Assembly: GCA_026414605.1 (NCBI GenBank)
Contig: JAOAIP010000035.1
Location: forward strand, 1-64,000
DNA: 64,000 nt
Reading direction: 5' to 3'
DNA from: Bacteroidia bacterium
GTDB lineage: Bacteria > Bacteroidota > Bacteroidia > B-17B0 > Aurantibacillaceae
In this document: piece after piece, positions 45,463-51,674 of the stretch
Layout of the letters: each line of letters starts with the position of its first letter
Numbering within the stretch: the stretch's first letter is position 1
The notes under the pieces: generated by a model
What the model was told of the DNA's origin: nothing
Seen by the model: the letters and a program-made list of their open reading frames with translations, nothing else
Database searches by the model: none
Made by a program: the position numbers and the translations under genes

Positions 45463-45528
45463 TTTATTTAAAATAATTGGTCACTATTCAGCACTTCAAA
45501 CGTAACCACAATAATTAGTTGATTAGTT

Positions 45529-45602
45529 GAAAGTTCAAAGTAAAAAGTATTAAAATGCTACATCATTATATTGAAAAATATCTCCTTTTACTTTCAACTT
45601 TC
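45529..45602. repeat. Imperfect inverted repeat after rseP
   Basis: GAAAGTTCAAAGTAAAAAG (45529-45547) pairs with CTTTTACTTTCAACTTTC (45585-45602), with one mismatch and one bulge, around a 37-nt loop. Its low-complexity CTTT/AAAG content makes chance similarity possible. It may serve as an rseP 3' hairpin. Confidence 0.4.
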
Positions 45603-45731
45603 TACTTTCCACTTTGTACTAATGTGTTCTTTGCAGTAAAATATAACCTGATCAATAACGAAAAGTTTTTTCTTTTCTATGAAATATTTTCCTTATACTT
45701 ACACGCAATGAAATCCAAATAATGCATAATA

Positions 45732-45925
45732 TCACTATTGCCTAAAATGTTTTTTGATACCTTATGAAAAATATCAATAATAGCAATGAAAAGCGATGAT
45801 AAAAAGAGAGAAGGAGCGCTTTTTCAAATCCTTAAAATCAAAGACAAAAAGCATTGAAAATTAATAGTTTTTTATTCTTTTAATACATATTTTGGACAAT
45901 AGTGCAAGAGTATATTATTTTTGAT
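45732..45925 (-). repeat. Dispersed repeat, copy 1 (left of the cassette array)
   Basis: Starts TCACTATTGCCTAAAATG and continues through GAAAAATATCAATAATAGCA. It is a diverged version of the sequence at 50290 and 51175. It holds only the non-coding part of that repeat; the gene fragment next to copies 2 and 3 is absent here. It lies just upstream of the first cassette edge at 45975. Confidence 0.75.
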
Positions 45926-45974
45926 GGTTTAACGCAGTTATTACAATAATTTTTATAACTTCGTATAAATATTT

Positions 45975-45982
45975 GTTATCGG
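45975..45982 (+). repeat. Left edge of cassette 1 (attC R'-like GTTATCGG)
   Basis: GTTATCGG opens the first cassette. It corresponds in position and form to the GTT cores at 47100, 47801 and 50204. Its counterpart at the cassette end is CTGCTAAC (46974-46981), complementary at six of eight positions. A GTTTAAC (45927-45933) could be a matching R'' box, but the resulting ~56-bp site is A+T-rich and unconvincing. Confidence 0.5.
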
Positions 45983-46013
45983 TCAGGCTAAAAACGACAC
46001 TACAAGACAATAA

Positions 46014-46955
46014 ATGAAGTTAAAAAACAAAATAACGGACGTAACAAGACGACATATCGCAGACGAGATGACGATAGGGAATATTCGGTATCACGGAAAC
46101 CAAACTGAACCTGACTTTTTAGATCGACTGTTTGACCTTAAAAAATTACCCTCAAGAGACGGCAGGTATAATAATGCTTATGATGACATTTACCAGCATA
46201 TGGTAAACAATAATGATTGGGACACAGATTGGATTTACAGTGACCCAAGAATAAATCTTTTGTACATTGATGATGAAATGTATTTAAAGTTTCTATCAAT
46301 GACAGTTCACCCAAGAGTAAGAACAAATCAAGATGAAATTTCAAAACTCATAGAAATTTATAACAAGCATTTGAATGCGGACGGATTTGAAATTGCACAG
46401 ACAGATGAAATTTCAGGTAAGCCAGTATTTTCAGGACGACAAAAAGCAATTGGACAAGCCCATTTGGTTGATAAGAAAGTTGAAATAAAAAAATACTTGA
46501 ACACAGCTTACGTTAACAGCAAGATTAACACAATGATTGATGCTATTCACAAAGACACTGACTTAGCAATTGGGACAGCAAAAGAACTTCTTGAAACAAC
46601 TTGTAAATCAATTTTAAGACAAAAAGGAGAAACAATAAATCCAGATTGGACTTTGCCTCAATTACTTAAAGCAACGACAAACTGTTTAGACTTTACTCCA
46701 AAAGAAGCAAGCGACCCAGACAAAGCAGAAAAAGCTATAAAGCAAATACTTGGTGGAATTGCTTCAATTGTTCAAGGTGTTGGAGAATTAAGAAATGGCT
46801 ATGGGACAGGACACGGAAAAGATGCAGACTTCAAAGGCTTAGAAATTAAATATGCTAAATTATTAGTTGGTGTAGTTTCTGAAATAGCAATATTGTATTT
46901 GGCGACAAATGGAGAGACCGCAGAATTAATAGAAAATGAAACCGTAACAATATGA
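46014..46955 (+). CDS. Abortive-infection protein, AbiJ-like with C-terminal Abi_C domain (cassette 1)
   Basis: 313 residues. The C-terminal half (about 180-305) matches the Abi_C family: LAIGTAKELLETTCKSILRQ, LPQLLKATTNCLDF and the hallmark LRNGYGTGHGKD. The N-terminal part (IADEMTIGNIRYHGNQTEPD, LFDLKKLPSRDGRYNNAYDD) resembles the AbiJ N-terminal type. Such proteins protect populations against phage by growth arrest after infection. Its Asp codons are mostly GAC, unlike the host's GAT preference, supporting transfer. It is the sole gene of the first integron-like cassette (45976-47100). Confidence 0.82.
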   Translation: MKLKNKITDVTRRHIADEMTIGNIRYHGNQTEPDFLDRLFDLKKLPSRDGRYNNAYDDIYQHMVNNNDWDTDWIYSDPRINLLYIDDEMYLKFLSMTVHPRVRTNQDEISKLIEIYNKHLNADGFEIAQTDEISGKPVFSGRQKAIGQAHLVDKKVEIKKYLNTAYVNSKINTMIDAIHKDTDLAIGTAKELLETTCKSILRQKGETINPDWTLPQLLKATTNCLDFTPKEASDPDKAEKAIKQILGGIASIVQGVGELRNGYGTGHGKDADFKGLEIKYAKLLVGVVSEIAILYLATNGETAELIENETVTI

Positions 46956-46975
46956 CAGAAAGAGAAGCCCGAACT

Positions 46976-47105
46976 GCTAACAGTCGTTTTGCAAAAGCGT
47001 GGGTTTCGTGCTTCTATGACAGTGAAATGCTAAATTCAAGCTTTGTGCATCTAATGAAGTTTAGTGCTAAAAATCCCCGCCTTCGCAAAGCGGCAAACCG
47101 TTAGC
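46976..47105 (+). repeat. attC-like recombination site 1
   Basis: Outer boxes GCTAAC (46976-46981) and GTTAGC (47100-47105) are exact complements 130 bp apart. Inner arms (46987-47006, TTTTGCAAAAGCGTGGGTTT, and 47071-47090, AAATCCCCGCCTTCGCAAAG) pair imperfectly, leaving unpaired bases. AAC and GTT at the ends are the integron attC cores; the cut would fall between G47100 and T47101. Confidence 0.75.
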
Positions 47106-47170
47106 GGTCATTGTAAAAGACGACAGTGCAACCATCAACCGACAGATAATAATTTAATAACTAAACAAAA

Positions 47171-47602
47171 ATGGCAACAGACAAAATCTTAAACAAGACA
47201 ATCAGCATCAACGCATCAACTTCAAAAGTTTGGAACACTTTGACAACCCCCGACTTGATTAAAGAATGGTTATTCGGAACAAAAGTTATCTCTGACTGGA
47301 AAGTTGGAACTTCAATTCTCTTTACTGGCAATTGGCAAGGGACTGACTACGCAGACAAAGGGACAATCCTAAAGTTTGACATTGAAAAGGTTTTTCAATA
47401 CAATTATTGGAGTGGCTTTTCAGGTTTGCCAGACAGCCCCGAAAATTATTCAATGATAACATTTGAGTTGACATCAAAAGACAACGGAACAATGTTGACT
47501 TTAACACAAAGCAATTTTGCAACTGAAACAATGTATGAGCATTCAGACAAAAATTGGGACGCAGCACTTGACATTGTGAAGAACTTAGCAGAGAAACAAT
47601 GA
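47171..47602 (+). CDS. SRPBCC/AHSA1-type protein (cassette 2)
   Basis: 143 residues, START-like SRPBCC fold. NKTISINASTSKVWNTLTTP, the helix LIKEWLFGTKV and the C-terminal helix HSDKNWDAALDIVKNLAEKQ are typical of the AHSA1/Hsp90-activator-like group. These bind hydrophobic ligands or act in stress responses; the role here is unknown. It is the only gene of cassette 2 (47101-47801). Codon style (GAC for Asp) matches cassette 1 rather than the chromosome. Confidence 0.82.
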   Translation: MATDKILNKTISINASTSKVWNTLTTPDLIKEWLFGTKVISDWKVGTSILFTGNWQGTDYADKGTILKFDIEKVFQYNYWSGFSGLPDSPENYSMITFELTSKDNGTMLTLTQSNFATETMYEHSDKNWDAALDIVKNLAEKQ

Positions 47603-47676
47603 TAACAGGACAGCGAGCGGACAATTATGCGTTTAATCAGTGGACAATAACGGACGACAAAAAAGAACAACGAACC

Positions 47677-47807
47677 GCTAACAGCACCTACAAGAAATTG
47701 GCGGTTCAGTGGTTAAATAAACATTTGTGCTTCTATCAAAGTTTATGCTTGTTTGACACTGAATTGTTTCGAAATCGCCACCTTCGGGTAGCTGCAAAAC
47801 GTTGTGC
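47677..47807 (+). repeat. attC-like recombination site 2
   Basis: Outer boxes GCTAAC (47677-47682) and GTTGTGC (47801-47807), 131 bp. The inner arms (CTACAAGAAATTGGCGGTT on the left, CGCCACCTTCGGGTAG on the right) pair imperfectly. The left box extends to CCGCTAAC, complementary to GTTAGCGG at 47100, the opposite end of the same cassette. The inner motif GTGCTTCTAT is shared with site 1. Confidence 0.75.
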
Positions 47808-47841
47808 GTCATGCTAAAATAGACATTGCTAAAACAAAATT

Positions 47842-50064
47842 ATGACAGAAGAAAGACAACCTCTAAGTGATGACGGATTCAAATACGCCTTGAATCAAAT
47901 AAATGATGGATTCGTATTTGAGAATTTTGCTTTGCGTTTTTTGCCTTTAATTCTTGGCTATGAATTTATGCCAGTTGGTGGTGTAAAAGACAAAGGTATT
48001 GACGGACTGAATTACATTTACTCCAGAGCTGGTTTTGAAAAAAATATATTTCAATTATCGACAGAAACAAATACTGAAGGCAAAATTGAAAACTCATTGC
48101 AAAAACTGATTGACAATGAAATTCCTTTCGACTCATTTGTCTATGTAACAAATCGAGCAGTAAACAATAAAGACACAGTAATCGACAAGTTTGTAGATAA
48201 ATTCAAAAAGCCAATTAGGATATTTGACCAAGGTTGGTTTGTAACTCATGCAAATCATTCAGACGCAACAATTAATTGCTATTACACATTCATTGACAGT
48301 TATCTTCATGAGTTTAACAAGCCTGGAAAGTCTTATGTTATAAGTAACTTAGCAGGAAAATCCGAATTATTTGTATTTCTAAGGCAACAACTTGAACACC
48401 ACCGTGACGACTTAAAAATTGACGACCTTCTAGCAGACACGCTTATTTTGTTTGGACTCGAAGGAACTGACCCTGATAAGGATATTTTAAAAACAAAAGA
48501 AGAACTTATCGTAAGTATTAAAGAGTTTGTAAAATTTGACCCTCGAATATTAAGCGAAACCATTGATAGAAGACTAAAAGCACTTTCAACAAAACCACGT
48601 AGAATTAAATTTCATTCAGCTAAGCAAGGATATTGTCTGCCATACGAAACTAGGGTTGAAATTCAGAATCGAAATTTAGCAGACGCTCAACTTCTTGAAA
48701 CATTTTACGAACAGACAAGTGAAATAATAAAAAAATATCTTAAAGAAGAGTCTGTTGCTGTCAGAGACTTAACCAAACTTATAGATGAAGTAATTCATAG
48801 TATTTTTTATCAGCAAGGACTTGAATTTTCAAATTACATTCTTCATGGCAAAAGTCAGCAAGTAATTGAAAAAGATCTTCAAGATATAATTAATTCGGTC
48901 GTTGACAGTAGTTCGGTTGTTGACAAGAATAAAGAAAAGGTAAAGACAGCCATGCTTATGGCAATTAGAGATATTGTTTATAATGGAACAATTGAACAAA
49001 AAAAGTATTTCAAAAGCCTTTCAAATACTTATATGATGATGTTTTTGTTGCAATGGAATCCTCAAATTGCAACATACTTTGAAGCAATGGCTTCGAAACT
49101 TGTAATCTATGTATGCACTTCGATACTCGTTCCTGCCTTATCAGAATATTATCTAACAAATGAGAATAAAAGACATTGGAATTTGCTTAAAGGAGCAAGC
49201 CAAGCTGGTATTAGACTTTATATCAGCGATGCAATAATTGACGAATTGATGCACCATTTCTACATGCTTCGAAATAAATATGAAACATTCTTTCGGAACA
49301 ACGAACAGGTTTATTTAAACAGCGAAGCAGAGACGATGTATATAGACGAAATCATGCTTCGGGCATACTTCTATGCTAAATCACAAGGCAAAGTATTTAA
49401 CTTTGAAGATTTCTTAAGCAATTTTGTTGACCCAGATTTAAAGACCGTAAAAGACGACCTTATTTCTTACCTAAAATGCGAATTTGGTATTGTTTATTTC
49501 AATGATGAATCACTTAAAATAAAGATTTCAGAAGAAGAGCAAGTTAAATTGACCAACAGACTTATTGAAAATAAAAGTCAAAAGAAAGCGGAGACAGACT
49601 CCAAAATTATTCTTTCTATTTATAAACTCAGAGAAAAAAATAATGAAACTGCAACGTCTGGTATTTTCGGTTACAAGACATGGTGGCTATCAAAAGATTC
49701 AACAACATTCAAAGCAGTGACCGATGTTTTTGGAGACAAATATCCAGTGAGTTGTTACATACGTCCTGACTTTCTATATAACTATATAACTCTTGCTCCA
49801 AAGAAACATGAAGTTGATGAAATGTATAAAGAAGTATTCCCGAGTTTATTAGGAGTTAATTTAAGTTTCCATTTACCTTCTGAAGTAACTGACTTTGTCC
49901 AAGAAAGAATTGTTGAACATGGAACCAAACATCCTGCTCGATTGACAGCAATTCTTGCCCGACTTTCTGAAAAACTAAAATCTGACCCGAATCTAAGAAA
50001 TAGAAAATCTGTGAAATCATTTTGGGATGAAGAACAAAAACGACTTGAAGAATCTGGTATGTAA
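47842..50064 (+). CDS. Large protein with Mrr-like N-terminal domain, candidate defence protein (cassette 3)
   Basis: 740 residues, not a family I can name. The N-terminus (about 20-150) follows the Mrr-type restriction-endonuclease layout: Glu27 in FVFENFALRFLPLILGY, GGVKDKGIDG with Asp54, FQLSTE at the next strand, then FVYVTNRAV and IRIFDQGWF. The usual catalytic Lys after the Gln is replaced by Ser (QLS), so cleavage is doubtful. Around residue 410-480, LVIYVCTSILVPALSE with GIRLYISDAIIDELMHHFY looks like a PIN-type nuclease core, except that the first Asp is Cys. The rest is helical. The gene fills cassette 3 (47802-50204); its company with an Abi gene suggests phage defence. Function is inferred. 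Confidence 0.7.
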   Translation: MTEERQPLSDDGFKYALNQINDGFVFENFALRFLPLILGYEFMPVGGVKDKGIDGLNYIYSRAGFEKNIFQLSTETNTEGKIENSLQKLIDNEIPFDSFVYVTNRAVNNKDTVIDKFVDKFKKPIRIFDQGWFVTHANHSDATINCYYTFIDSYLHEFNKPGKSYVISNLAGKSELFVFLRQQLEHHRDDLKIDDLLADTLILFGLEGTDPDKDILKTKEELIVSIKEFVKFDPRILSETIDRRLKALSTKPRRIKFHSAKQGYCLPYETRVEIQNRNLADAQLLETFYEQTSEIIKKYLKEESVAVRDLTKLIDEVIHSIFYQQGLEFSNYILHGKSQQVIEKDLQDIINSVVDSSSVVDKNKEKVKTAMLMAIRDIVYNGTIEQKKYFKSLSNTYMMMFLLQWNPQIATYFEAMASKLVIYVCTSILVPALSEYYLTNENKRHWNLLKGASQAGIRLYISDAIIDELMHHFYMLRNKYETFFRNNEQVYLNSEAETMYIDEIMLRAYFYAKSQGKVFNFEDFLSNFVDPDLKTVKDDLISYLKCEFGIVYFNDESLKIKISEEEQVKLTNRLIENKSQKKAETDSKIILSIYKLREKNNETATSGIFGYKTWWLSKDSTTFKAVTDVFGDKYPVSCYIRPDFLYNYITLAPKKHEVDEMYKEVFPSLLGVNLSFHLPSEVTDFVQERIVEHGTKHPARLTAILARLSEKLKSDPNLRNRKSVKSFWDEEQKRLEESGM

Positions 50065-50076
50065 AGAAGTACGTAC

Positions 50077-50209
50077 GCACAACGGCCGTTTGGCGTCATG
50101 CGGGGTGACGTGCTTAAATTCAAGTGCAGTGCTACTATTGAGATTTAGTGGTAGGTTCACAGTTTTGTGCTCCGAAACCCGTCCGAACGCAAAGCCCGAA
50201 ACCGTTAGC
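50077..50209 (+). repeat. attC-like recombination site 3
   Basis: Outer boxes GCACAAC (50077-50083) and GTTAGC (50204-50209), 133 bp. GCACAAC is the exact complement of GTTGTGC at 47801, the left edge of the same cassette. Inner arms around TTTGGCGTCATGCGGGG and CCCGTCCGAACGCAAAG pair imperfectly. It is the last site of the array. Confidence 0.75.
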
Positions 50210-50289
50210 GGAAACCCTAAAAAAACCGACTACCTAGCTATTTTGACAATAAAAGTAACTTTTTAGAGTTGATATAGATTGATATTTTT

Positions 50290-50789
50290 TCACTATTGCC
50301 TAAAATGTTTTTTTGATACCATTGAAAAATATCAATAATAGCAACCAAAAGCGGAGATGAAAAAAAGAGGGAGAGTGTCTTTTCAAAAACTTAAAATTTA
50401 ATTCACTGATAATCAATGTTGTAATTTTTATTAACAGTTATTTTGGATAGTAGTGGAAAAAAGTATCCGTGATTTTTTAAGAGGATGATTTAGTGTAATG
50501 TTTTTCTAATAAGACGGATAGTTTATCAATATCTATTTCTTCCATTTTTTCTATTTCACTCAAAATATCAGGATTATCAATATATTCAGTAAGTTGCTTT
50601 TTAAGTTTTTTAGATTTTAATTCCACAAACTTTTCTCCTTTTTGCAAATAATATTCTTTTGCAGTAAAAAATTCTCCCATTTTCATATCTTCAAATTGAT
50701 ATTCAAAAATTTTAACGGGATAACTTATAGCCACTTTGTAAAACTTTGGTTCATCATCTGTAATGCTTATAAATTGATGCCATTTCTTT
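50290..50789 (-). repeat. 500-bp direct repeat, copy 2 (truncated)
   Basis: Starts TCACTATTGCC like copy 1 and stays very close to copy 3 (51175-51674) for about 500 bp, through a non-coding part and the 3' half of a gene. Similarity ends at CATTTCTTT (to 50789). The left end lies about 80 bp from the last attC-like site. Confidence 0.88.
50477..50789 (-). pseudogene. 5'-truncated copy of the gene at 51362-51922
   Basis: The frame from KKWHQFISITDDEPKFYKV to the C-terminal LLEKHYTKSSS matches the last ~100 residues of the downstream intact copy almost residue for residue (Val for Phe in AISYPVKI, Ile for Val in NPDILSE, Thr for Ser near the end). At 50789 homology stops abruptly and the signal peptide and N-terminal half are missing. 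An ATG in unrelated sequence at 50816-50818 could start a short product, but it lacks the export signal. Confidence 0.85.
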
Positions 50790-50911: not shown

Positions 50912-51178
50912 TCAAAGATCCCCTTCATCTTCTAGATATTCTTCATACATACTTTCTTCTTCCAGTTGCTTTTCATACATAGCCGCTTCAGCTTCTAATT
51001 GCTCTTCATACATAGCTTCTTCTTCCAGTTGCTCTTCGTATATATCTGCTTCATCTCTTTCGTTTACGGCATTTTTCACATCTGCCCTTAAAAATATTTT
51101 GGGAATGTCTATACTTAAACCTACCATTAGGTTATTATTTTTTATATTTAATTCGTCCAAAGATAAATAAAAAATCAC
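50912..51178 (-). pseudogene. Remnant of a gene ending in acidic 10-11-residue repeats
   Basis: The reading frame (88 codons) starts only at a GTG inside repeat copy 3, with a stop just upstream, so the original 5' part seems to have been cut off. The readable part contains NNLMVGLSIDIPKIFLRADV, then four acidic units of the type YEEQLEEEAM (last unit YEEYLEDEGDL). No family is recognised. It may be the tail of a surface or cytoskeletal-like protein, or a chance open frame kept by the repeat. Confidence 0.45.
50941..51043. repeat. Tandem repeat, 30-33-bp units
   Basis: Units built on CTTCATACATAGC plus a CTTCTTCCAGTTGCT-like part repeat about three to four times. On the minus strand they encode the acidic YEEQLEEE units. 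Unit lengths of 30 and 33 bp keep the frame. Confidence 0.7.
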
Positions 51179-51674
51179 TATTGCCTAAAATGTTTTTTGA
51201 TACCATTGAAAAATATCAATAATAGCAACCAAAAGCGGTGATAAAAAAGTAGGGAGAGTGTCTTTTCAAAAACTCAAAATTTAATTCACTGATAATCAAT
51301 GTTATAATTTTTTATTAACAGTGATTTTGGAAAATAGTGGAAAAGAGTTGTCCGTTATTTTTTAAGAGGATGATTTAGAGTAATGTTTTTCTAATAAGAC
51401 CGATAGTTTGTCAATATCTATTTCTTCCATTTTTTCTATTTCACTCAAAACATCAGGATTATCAATATATTCAGTAAGTTGCTTTTTAAGTTTTTTAGAT
51501 TTTAATTCTACAAACTTTTCTCCTTTTTGCAAATAATATTCTTTTGCAGTAAAAAATTCTCCCATTTTCATATCTTCAAATTGATATTCAAAAATTTTAA
51601 AGGGATAACTTATAGCCACTTTGTAAAATTTGGGTTCATCATCTGTAATGCTTATAAATTGATGCCATTTCTTT
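51175..51674 (-). repeat. 500-bp direct repeat, copy 3 (with intact gene)
   Basis: Near-identical to 50290-50789 from TCACTATTGCC to CATTTCTTT. It contains the 3' flank and 3' half of the gene at 51362-51922. This is the probable source copy because the gene continues intact beyond it. Confidence 0.88.

Follow-up and report, generated by a model that had tools for sequence, protein, structure and literature searches.

IntegronFinder defines the integrase of an integron by means of an IntI-specific profile. For Bacteroidetes, a survey made with this program mentions only In0 elements, which consist of an integrase alone, from earlier work, plus one complete integron, that of Salinibacter ruber (PMC9024848). 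Other reports concern genes that we shall meet again below. In Riemerella anatipestifer a gene accompanied by a 27-bp 5' segment and a 140-bp attC-like 3' segment inserts without homology, and lnu(H) does so too (PMC13148043); a xerD gene lies upstream of tet(X14) and in the opposite direction, at a place where the authors found no integron (PMC7473080); and tetX-catB11-IS91-XerD clusters have been recorded (PMC11194056). The present work is about a 64,000-nucleotide stretch of DNA, henceforth the window, from a Bacteroidia bacterium of the Aurantibacillaceae (GenBank assembly GCA_026414605.1, contig JAOAIP010000035.1, positions 1 to 64,000 of the forward strand), in which a first-pass annotation had proposed an integron-like array of three gene cassettes. 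Very probably, this is indeed a cluster of attC sites lacking an integrase (CALIN: at least two attC, no integrase, as in the window; PMC9024848), derived from what we shall call a Bacteroidia-type integron, and made of a degenerate attI, three cassettes and the remnant of another one. This type is apparently an undescribed integron family, common in Bacteroidia as far as genome sequences tell: we found no account of Bacteroidia integrons of this kind in the literature searched, which left out preprints and most subscription papers.

An array of three cassettes

Three genes, all on the plus strand, are each followed by a palindrome bounded by AAC and GTT, and every base that the first-pass annotation had listed is present. 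A covariance model, R1, places an attC-like site of 134-136 nt after each of the three cassette genes, and the array can be described as follows:

45948..45977, plus strand: attI-like site (..ATAACTTCGTATAAATATTT|GTT) at the left edge of the array, scored with the attI matrix
45976..47100, plus strand: cassette 1, with G|TT boundaries at 45975 and 47100, its own ends matching at 6/8 positions
46014..46955, plus strand: AbiJ-type abortive-infection protein, 313 aa (PF18860, E 8e-54; PF14355, E 2e-19; PADLOC AbiJ, 1.5e-10)
46974..47107, plus strand: attC 1 (R' CTGCTAAC ... R'' GTTAGCGG), R1 132.5 bits (training-set member), bottom strand z -2.4
47101..47801, plus strand: cassette 2, own ends GTTAGCGG / CCGCTAAC fully complementary
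47171..47602, plus strand: AHSA1/SRPBCC-domain protein, 143 aa (PF08327, E 3e-21)
47675..47808, plus strand: attC 2 (R' CCGCTAAC ... R'' GTTGTGCG), R1 107.1 bits (training-set member), bottom strand z -2.6
47802..50204, plus strand: cassette 3, own ends GTTGTGCG / CGCACAAC fully complementary
47842..50064, plus strand: 740-aa protein, no family assigned, the open reading frame (ORF) of cassette 3
50076..50211, plus strand: attC 3 (R' CGCACAAC ... R'' GTTAGCGG), R1 92.4 bits (training-set member), the weakest fold, z -0.3
50205..50235, plus strand: what is left of a fourth cassette, namely its leader TTAGCGGAAACCCTAAAA, which can be aligned to those of cassettes 1-3 (repeat family D2)

The feature that gives this arrangement its meaning is that complementarity belongs to the two ends of one cassette, not to the two ends of one site. 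Cassettes begin with GTTATCGG (45975), GTTAGCGG (47100) and GTTGTGCG (47801), and end with CTGCTAAC (46981), CCGCTAAC (47682) and CGCACAAC (50083); the match is perfect in cassettes 2 and 3, and cassette 1 agrees at six of eight positions (three of the five variable ones), exactly as had been claimed. The rule turned out to be general. In a set of 90 cassettes, taken from 27 arrays, the own ends of a cassette agree at 4.57 of five variable positions, versus 2.71 for the ends of a same site and 2.62 +/- 0.10 after shuffling, with 0/5,000 shuffles reaching the observed value; perfect complementarity is seen in 76/90 cassettes for own ends, versus 6/90 for same-site ends. One could see in the palindromes terminators or repeats that merely trail unrelated genes, being as they are hairpin-forming and located downstream of genes, but a partnership that goes with the cassette, together with between-host identities that end exactly at the cores, leaves this idea hardly credible.

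Directly after site 3, from 50204, comes the truncated start of a fourth cassette (GTTAGCGGAAACCCTAAAA), with neither gene nor attC behind its leader, the R1 scan of the window giving no further site. The cassettes have a codon usage of their own: GAC stands for 66% of the Asp codons, versus 18% in neighbouring genes, which bears out the deviation noticed at first. As to the genes, the 740-aa protein has no match in Pfam, PADLOC, NCBIfam or PHROG, and is about 22% identical to hypothetical proteins of enterobacterial plasmids; a relative of the AHSA1/SRPBCC gene is present in the array of another Bacteroidia genome (G347), and on a Chryseobacterium plasmid an SRPBCC gene lies immediately 5' of an attC.

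Several observations made around the array may be recorded here. A leader of about 30 nt, of form GTTRNNGGTCATNNTAAAANNACGACA, precedes the gene in cassettes of many hosts (in the window, at 47100-47125, 45975-46000 and 47801-47825). One more attC-like site, the fourth of the host genome, stands alone (G000:C27:7232-7365, L211; 65.7 bits). A repeat of about 175 bp is found at 45732-45908, 50290-50458 and 51171-51345, the copies to the left and right of the array being 75% identical, and 50290-50520 repeats at 93% the sequence found from position 51175 onwards, including the 3' part of a 206-aa gene. We considered the flanking pair as an insertion footprint and rejected this interpretation, since the third copy, at 51171, speaks for a dispersed or gene-linked repeat. 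In congeners of the host rseP is conserved, and the genes beyond the array are without counterpart in the congener loci compared.

Structure and distribution of the attC sites

Model R1 rests on an alignment of ten sites, three from the window and seven from other Bacteroidia, with a structure of 26 pairs; an exact-pattern search (CGTTAGCGGTCAT) had given only mild enrichment over its reversed control, and the covariance model was used instead. In this structure 83% of the cells are paired, and the covariation lies above that of all 500 shuffles (0/500 reach the score) and collapses when the structure is slid by 1-3 columns. With at most 8 candidates scored per genome, at least one site (E <= 1e-5) was found in 256 of 395 Bacteroidia genomes, that is, in 65% of those sampled, which corrects any initial impression that such sites would be rare in Bacteroidota. 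As controls, two class 1 integrons and a canonical-IntI locus gave zero sites.

The arms of 95 full-length sites pair best when 1 nt is left as a spacer behind AAC and 5 nt ahead of GTT. The hairpin comprises an 8-bp R box, these two spacers, an L box of some 12 bp and, innermost, a further stem; the measured geometry leans towards R1 because the 95 sites were found with it. Only 10 of them (11%) fit the GTTRRRY core. Paired R and L boxes are present 3' of each gene of the window, by alignment only for site 3. Folding of the bottom strand, which had been suggested as a test, agrees with the proposal for sites 1 and 2, more stable than their shuffled versions (z -2.4 and -2.6), and fails to do so for site 3 alone (z -0.3). 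A second, longer form of site, of about 165-198 nt and with low R1 scores, occurs in the same arrays (L035 9882-10078, L046 362-535, L162, L156). Many contigs end about 130-500 bp from such sites or beside the recombinase (G374:C122, G314:C319, G204:C70, G298:C50, L106, L111, L122); it is therefore probable that attC repeats interrupt short-read assemblies, in which too few arrays are then counted.

A tyrosine recombinase without the IntI insert

Canonical IntI (TIGR02249) is above cut-off in just one of the 395 genomes. A tyrosine-recombinase search of the genomes that carry arrays found, at the head of these arrays, a protein of 360-415 aa with domains PF13495 and PF00589, devoid of the IntI-specific insert and endowed with an extra N-terminal region; its match to TIGR02249 falls into two pieces and reaches 187-228 bits, versus a cut-off of 265. 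The recombinase beside these sites is thus, by its sequence, a member of a family without the IntI-specific insert, not a canonical IntI, and we file the system as an integron variant outside the IntI family, since tests for the insert and for the score that define this family both came out negative. A profile of this family matches in 199/395 genomes (E <= 1e-65), the host not being among them. Sites and recombinase are found together in 174 genomes, sites only in 82, recombinase only in 25 and neither in 114, with an odds ratio of 9.7 that ignores phylogeny. Contigs of metagenome-assembled genomes (MAGs) named Phycisphaerales, Limnohabitans and Lachnospiraceae (L139, L159, L163) bear a Bacteroidota recombinase and are probably mis-binned.

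It might be thought that a canonical IntI, since lost or acting in trans, moved the cassettes while the linked recombinase is incidental, and one genome of the same class (G142) does possess such an enzyme. Yet a single genome above cut-off has to be set against sites in 256; R1 is blind to the canonical-IntI locus and to the two class 1 integrons, and GTTRRRY accounts for a tenth or so of the cores (11%), so that we hold this scenario to be most improbable.

In the phylogenetic tree, whose branches are long, Xer proteins stand apart; there is support for clade A and for clade B of the insert-less recombinases, and IntI clusters with another insert-less clade, C (100/98). The structure predicted for a Kaistella recombinase (pLDDT 84, pTM 0.52) has as its closest neighbour in the Protein Data Bank (PDB) the archaeal Xer 4a8e, followed by IntI4, 2a3v. 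It may be asked whether the XerC/XerD of the host, not an array-linked enzyme, could move the cassettes: the only two tyrosine recombinases of the host genome are both Xer-like, and there are 82 genomes with sites and no recombinase detected. Against this, the array-linked family sits at the head of arrays, with near-perfect polarity and an attI of its own, and is phylogenetically separate from Xer; we regard the involvement of XerC/XerD as very unlikely.

Polarity, attI and the left end of the array

A scan of named genomes yielded 80 recombinase loci, in genera that include Chryseobacterium, Kaistella, Epilithonimonas, Flavobacterium, Winogradskyella, Pedobacter and Sphingobacterium. Thirty-eight of these loci contain, according to R1, 93 sites in all, 47 of them located to the left of the recombinase on the minus strand and 45 to its right on the plus strand, and therefore 92 of the 93 read away from the recombinase. 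Between the recombinase and the first cassette lies a conserved attI, TTKCGTATATTTGWGWG|TT, after which sequences diverge; in the 33 attI sites collected the distance from CGTATA to GTT is 7 nt. A complete plasmid-borne integron of the Bacteroidia type was noticed in Chryseobacterium sp. SNU WT5 (L213), where the recombinase is accompanied by six outward sites. In congeners of the host, sites are found beside recombinases of the array-head group; one of these (G395:C2:254452-254937; L063, L207), which heads a 15-kb array, has an in-frame TAA.

When the matrix built from these 33 other loci is run over the window (about 128,000 positions), its top match falls at 45975, the boundary that had been independently predicted, and the CGTATA-GTT spacing there is again 7 nt. 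We read this site as a degenerate attI or as an attI-like secondary site. Several facts weigh against the reading of the window as the relic of a Bacteroidia-type integron. The score of its attI-like site, 11.4, is below that of every confirmed attI (15.7-34.5), and is reached somewhere in 13/60 shuffled windows. The integrase gene, already reported missing from the window, is missing from the whole host genome as well: searches with tyrosine-recombinase and family profiles found no integrase elsewhere, where the first-pass annotation had advised to look for one, and the family profile finds no relic of it at 45463-45990. To this must be added that attC 3 by itself folds no better than chance, that three of the ten sites used to train R1 came from the window, that phylogeny is left aside in the odds ratio given above, and that in 82 genomes sites were detected and the recombinase was not, a number to which E-value limits and the incompleteness of genomes could contribute. 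Two candidates for an integrase or its relic were discarded: a 19-aa tblastn match beside the attI-like site (E 0.007 among 80 queries), ruled out by the negative family profile, and the partial TIGR02249 matches of the host, which are its two Xer-like proteins.

It could then be that the cassettes were put by an integrase located elsewhere into a secondary, attG-like site, and that 45975 never was an attI. An AT-rich site with GTT, a low attI score, the failure to find an integrase relic and the lone site elsewhere in the host genome would fit such a history; the CGTATA-GTT spacing, exactly 7 nt at the edge of the array, the top rank of this position in the window and a truncated fourth cassette, suggesting that the array was once longer, speak against it. 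We consider it unlikely, while giving it real weight. Within the favoured reading, that of a CALIN with three R1 sites and no integrase as first proposed, the array may have been left behind after loss of the integrase or filled by an integrase acting in trans.

Cassettes as mobile units

The longest ORF is in the sense direction in 104 of 108 ORF-bearing cassettes. Identity between hosts stops at the core sites, and identical cassettes cross families and orders. One cassette of 1,328 nt, which encodes Tet(X2), does not differ between Chryseobacterium lacus and a MAG obtained from activated sludge and belonging to the host's family; the same unit, at exactly 1,327 nt, is also carried by plasmids of Sphingobacterium, Bacteroides, Empedobacter and Myroides. 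The flanks of this tet(X2) cassette differ among six hosts, every junction being at GTT. Variation at the GTT cut, which was to be looked for between shared flanks, is thus found outside the window, both here and where a conserved attI is followed by differing first cassettes. A mercury-transport cassette of 1,436 nt shows 97-98% identity with two Flavobacterium genomes, and R1 sites lie directly 3' of aadS, lnu(H) and blaOXA-347 on plasmids that bear tet(X2). Among 106 cassette proteins the families that could be named are Tet(X), AadS, Lnu(H)-like, rifampin ADP-ribosyltransferase, MerTP, DNA methylases and defence-linked proteins.

How the system would work and why it matters

Comparison across genomes establishes, within what sequence can convey, the site structure, the G|TT boundaries, the polarity, the attI, the linkage to a recombinase and the occurrence of cassettes that are identical though their contexts differ. 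From this set we infer that the insert-less recombinase is the catalyst and that one folded strand is used. Cassettes would be circular DNA units, each with a single attC; the attC, presumably single-stranded, would fold into a long hairpin; a tyrosine recombinase (about 355-415 aa, insert-less, extended by an additional N-terminal domain) would cleave at G|TT and place the cassettes in the attI adjoining its own gene.

A broader picture may be sketched, tentative enough that we would not be surprised to see it fail. Integron recombination might need no IntI-specific insert, the insert-less recombinases being an older and wider group of which canonical IntI, grouping with clade C (100/98), would be one branch; folded attC would be recognized differently in Bacteroidia, through asymmetric 1/5-nt spacers and an extra N-terminal domain; and tet(X), aadS, lnu(H) and blaOXA-347 could have their native source in Bacteroidia integrons and be moved by them.

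The Bacteroidia-type integron would add an integron lineage common across Bacteroidia, apparently overlooked because searches for integrons define the integrase by a feature that is absent from the Bacteroidia recombinase. It would offer a testable mechanism for the movement of tet(X) and its neighbours in Bacteroidota, including the test of XerD called for with tet(X14) (PMC7473080), and likewise for the homology-free insertion of resistance genes in R. anatipestifer (PMC13148043). Natural insert-less recombinases would also be material for testing the role of the IntI insert, and defence-gene cassettes would be extended to a further phylum.

Comparison with known systems

The insertions described in R. 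anatipestifer match by their attC-like 3' segment, and lnu(H) is here likewise trailed by an R1 site; that report leaves the mechanism unexplained and names no recombinase (PMC13148043). The 'XerD' found beside tet(X), catB and aadS in Flavobacteria accompanies the same genes as here (PMC7473080, PMC11194056), and its position near tet(X14), upstream and in the opposite direction, is that of the integrase in Bacteroidia loci (PMC7473080); the published tet(X)-linked 'XerD' may belong to the array-head recombinase family. With XerA, XerC and XerD proper the array-head recombinase has the catalytic fold in common (best match PDB 4a8e, IntI4 2a3v coming second), but it is linked to attI and attC arrays and separate in the tree. 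With IntI integrons, be they the sedentary chromosomal ones of Vibrio type or those of class 1, the Bacteroidia type shares an attI, cassettes arranged head to tail and all oriented alike, attC sites that form hairpins, the G|TT cut point, complementarity of cassette ends and a tyrosine recombinase beside attI. It differs from them in a recombinase without the IntI-specific insert and with another N-terminal domain, and in sites that rarely conform to GTTRRRY, have spacers of 1 and 5 nt and are described by a model to which the attC of class 1 are invisible.

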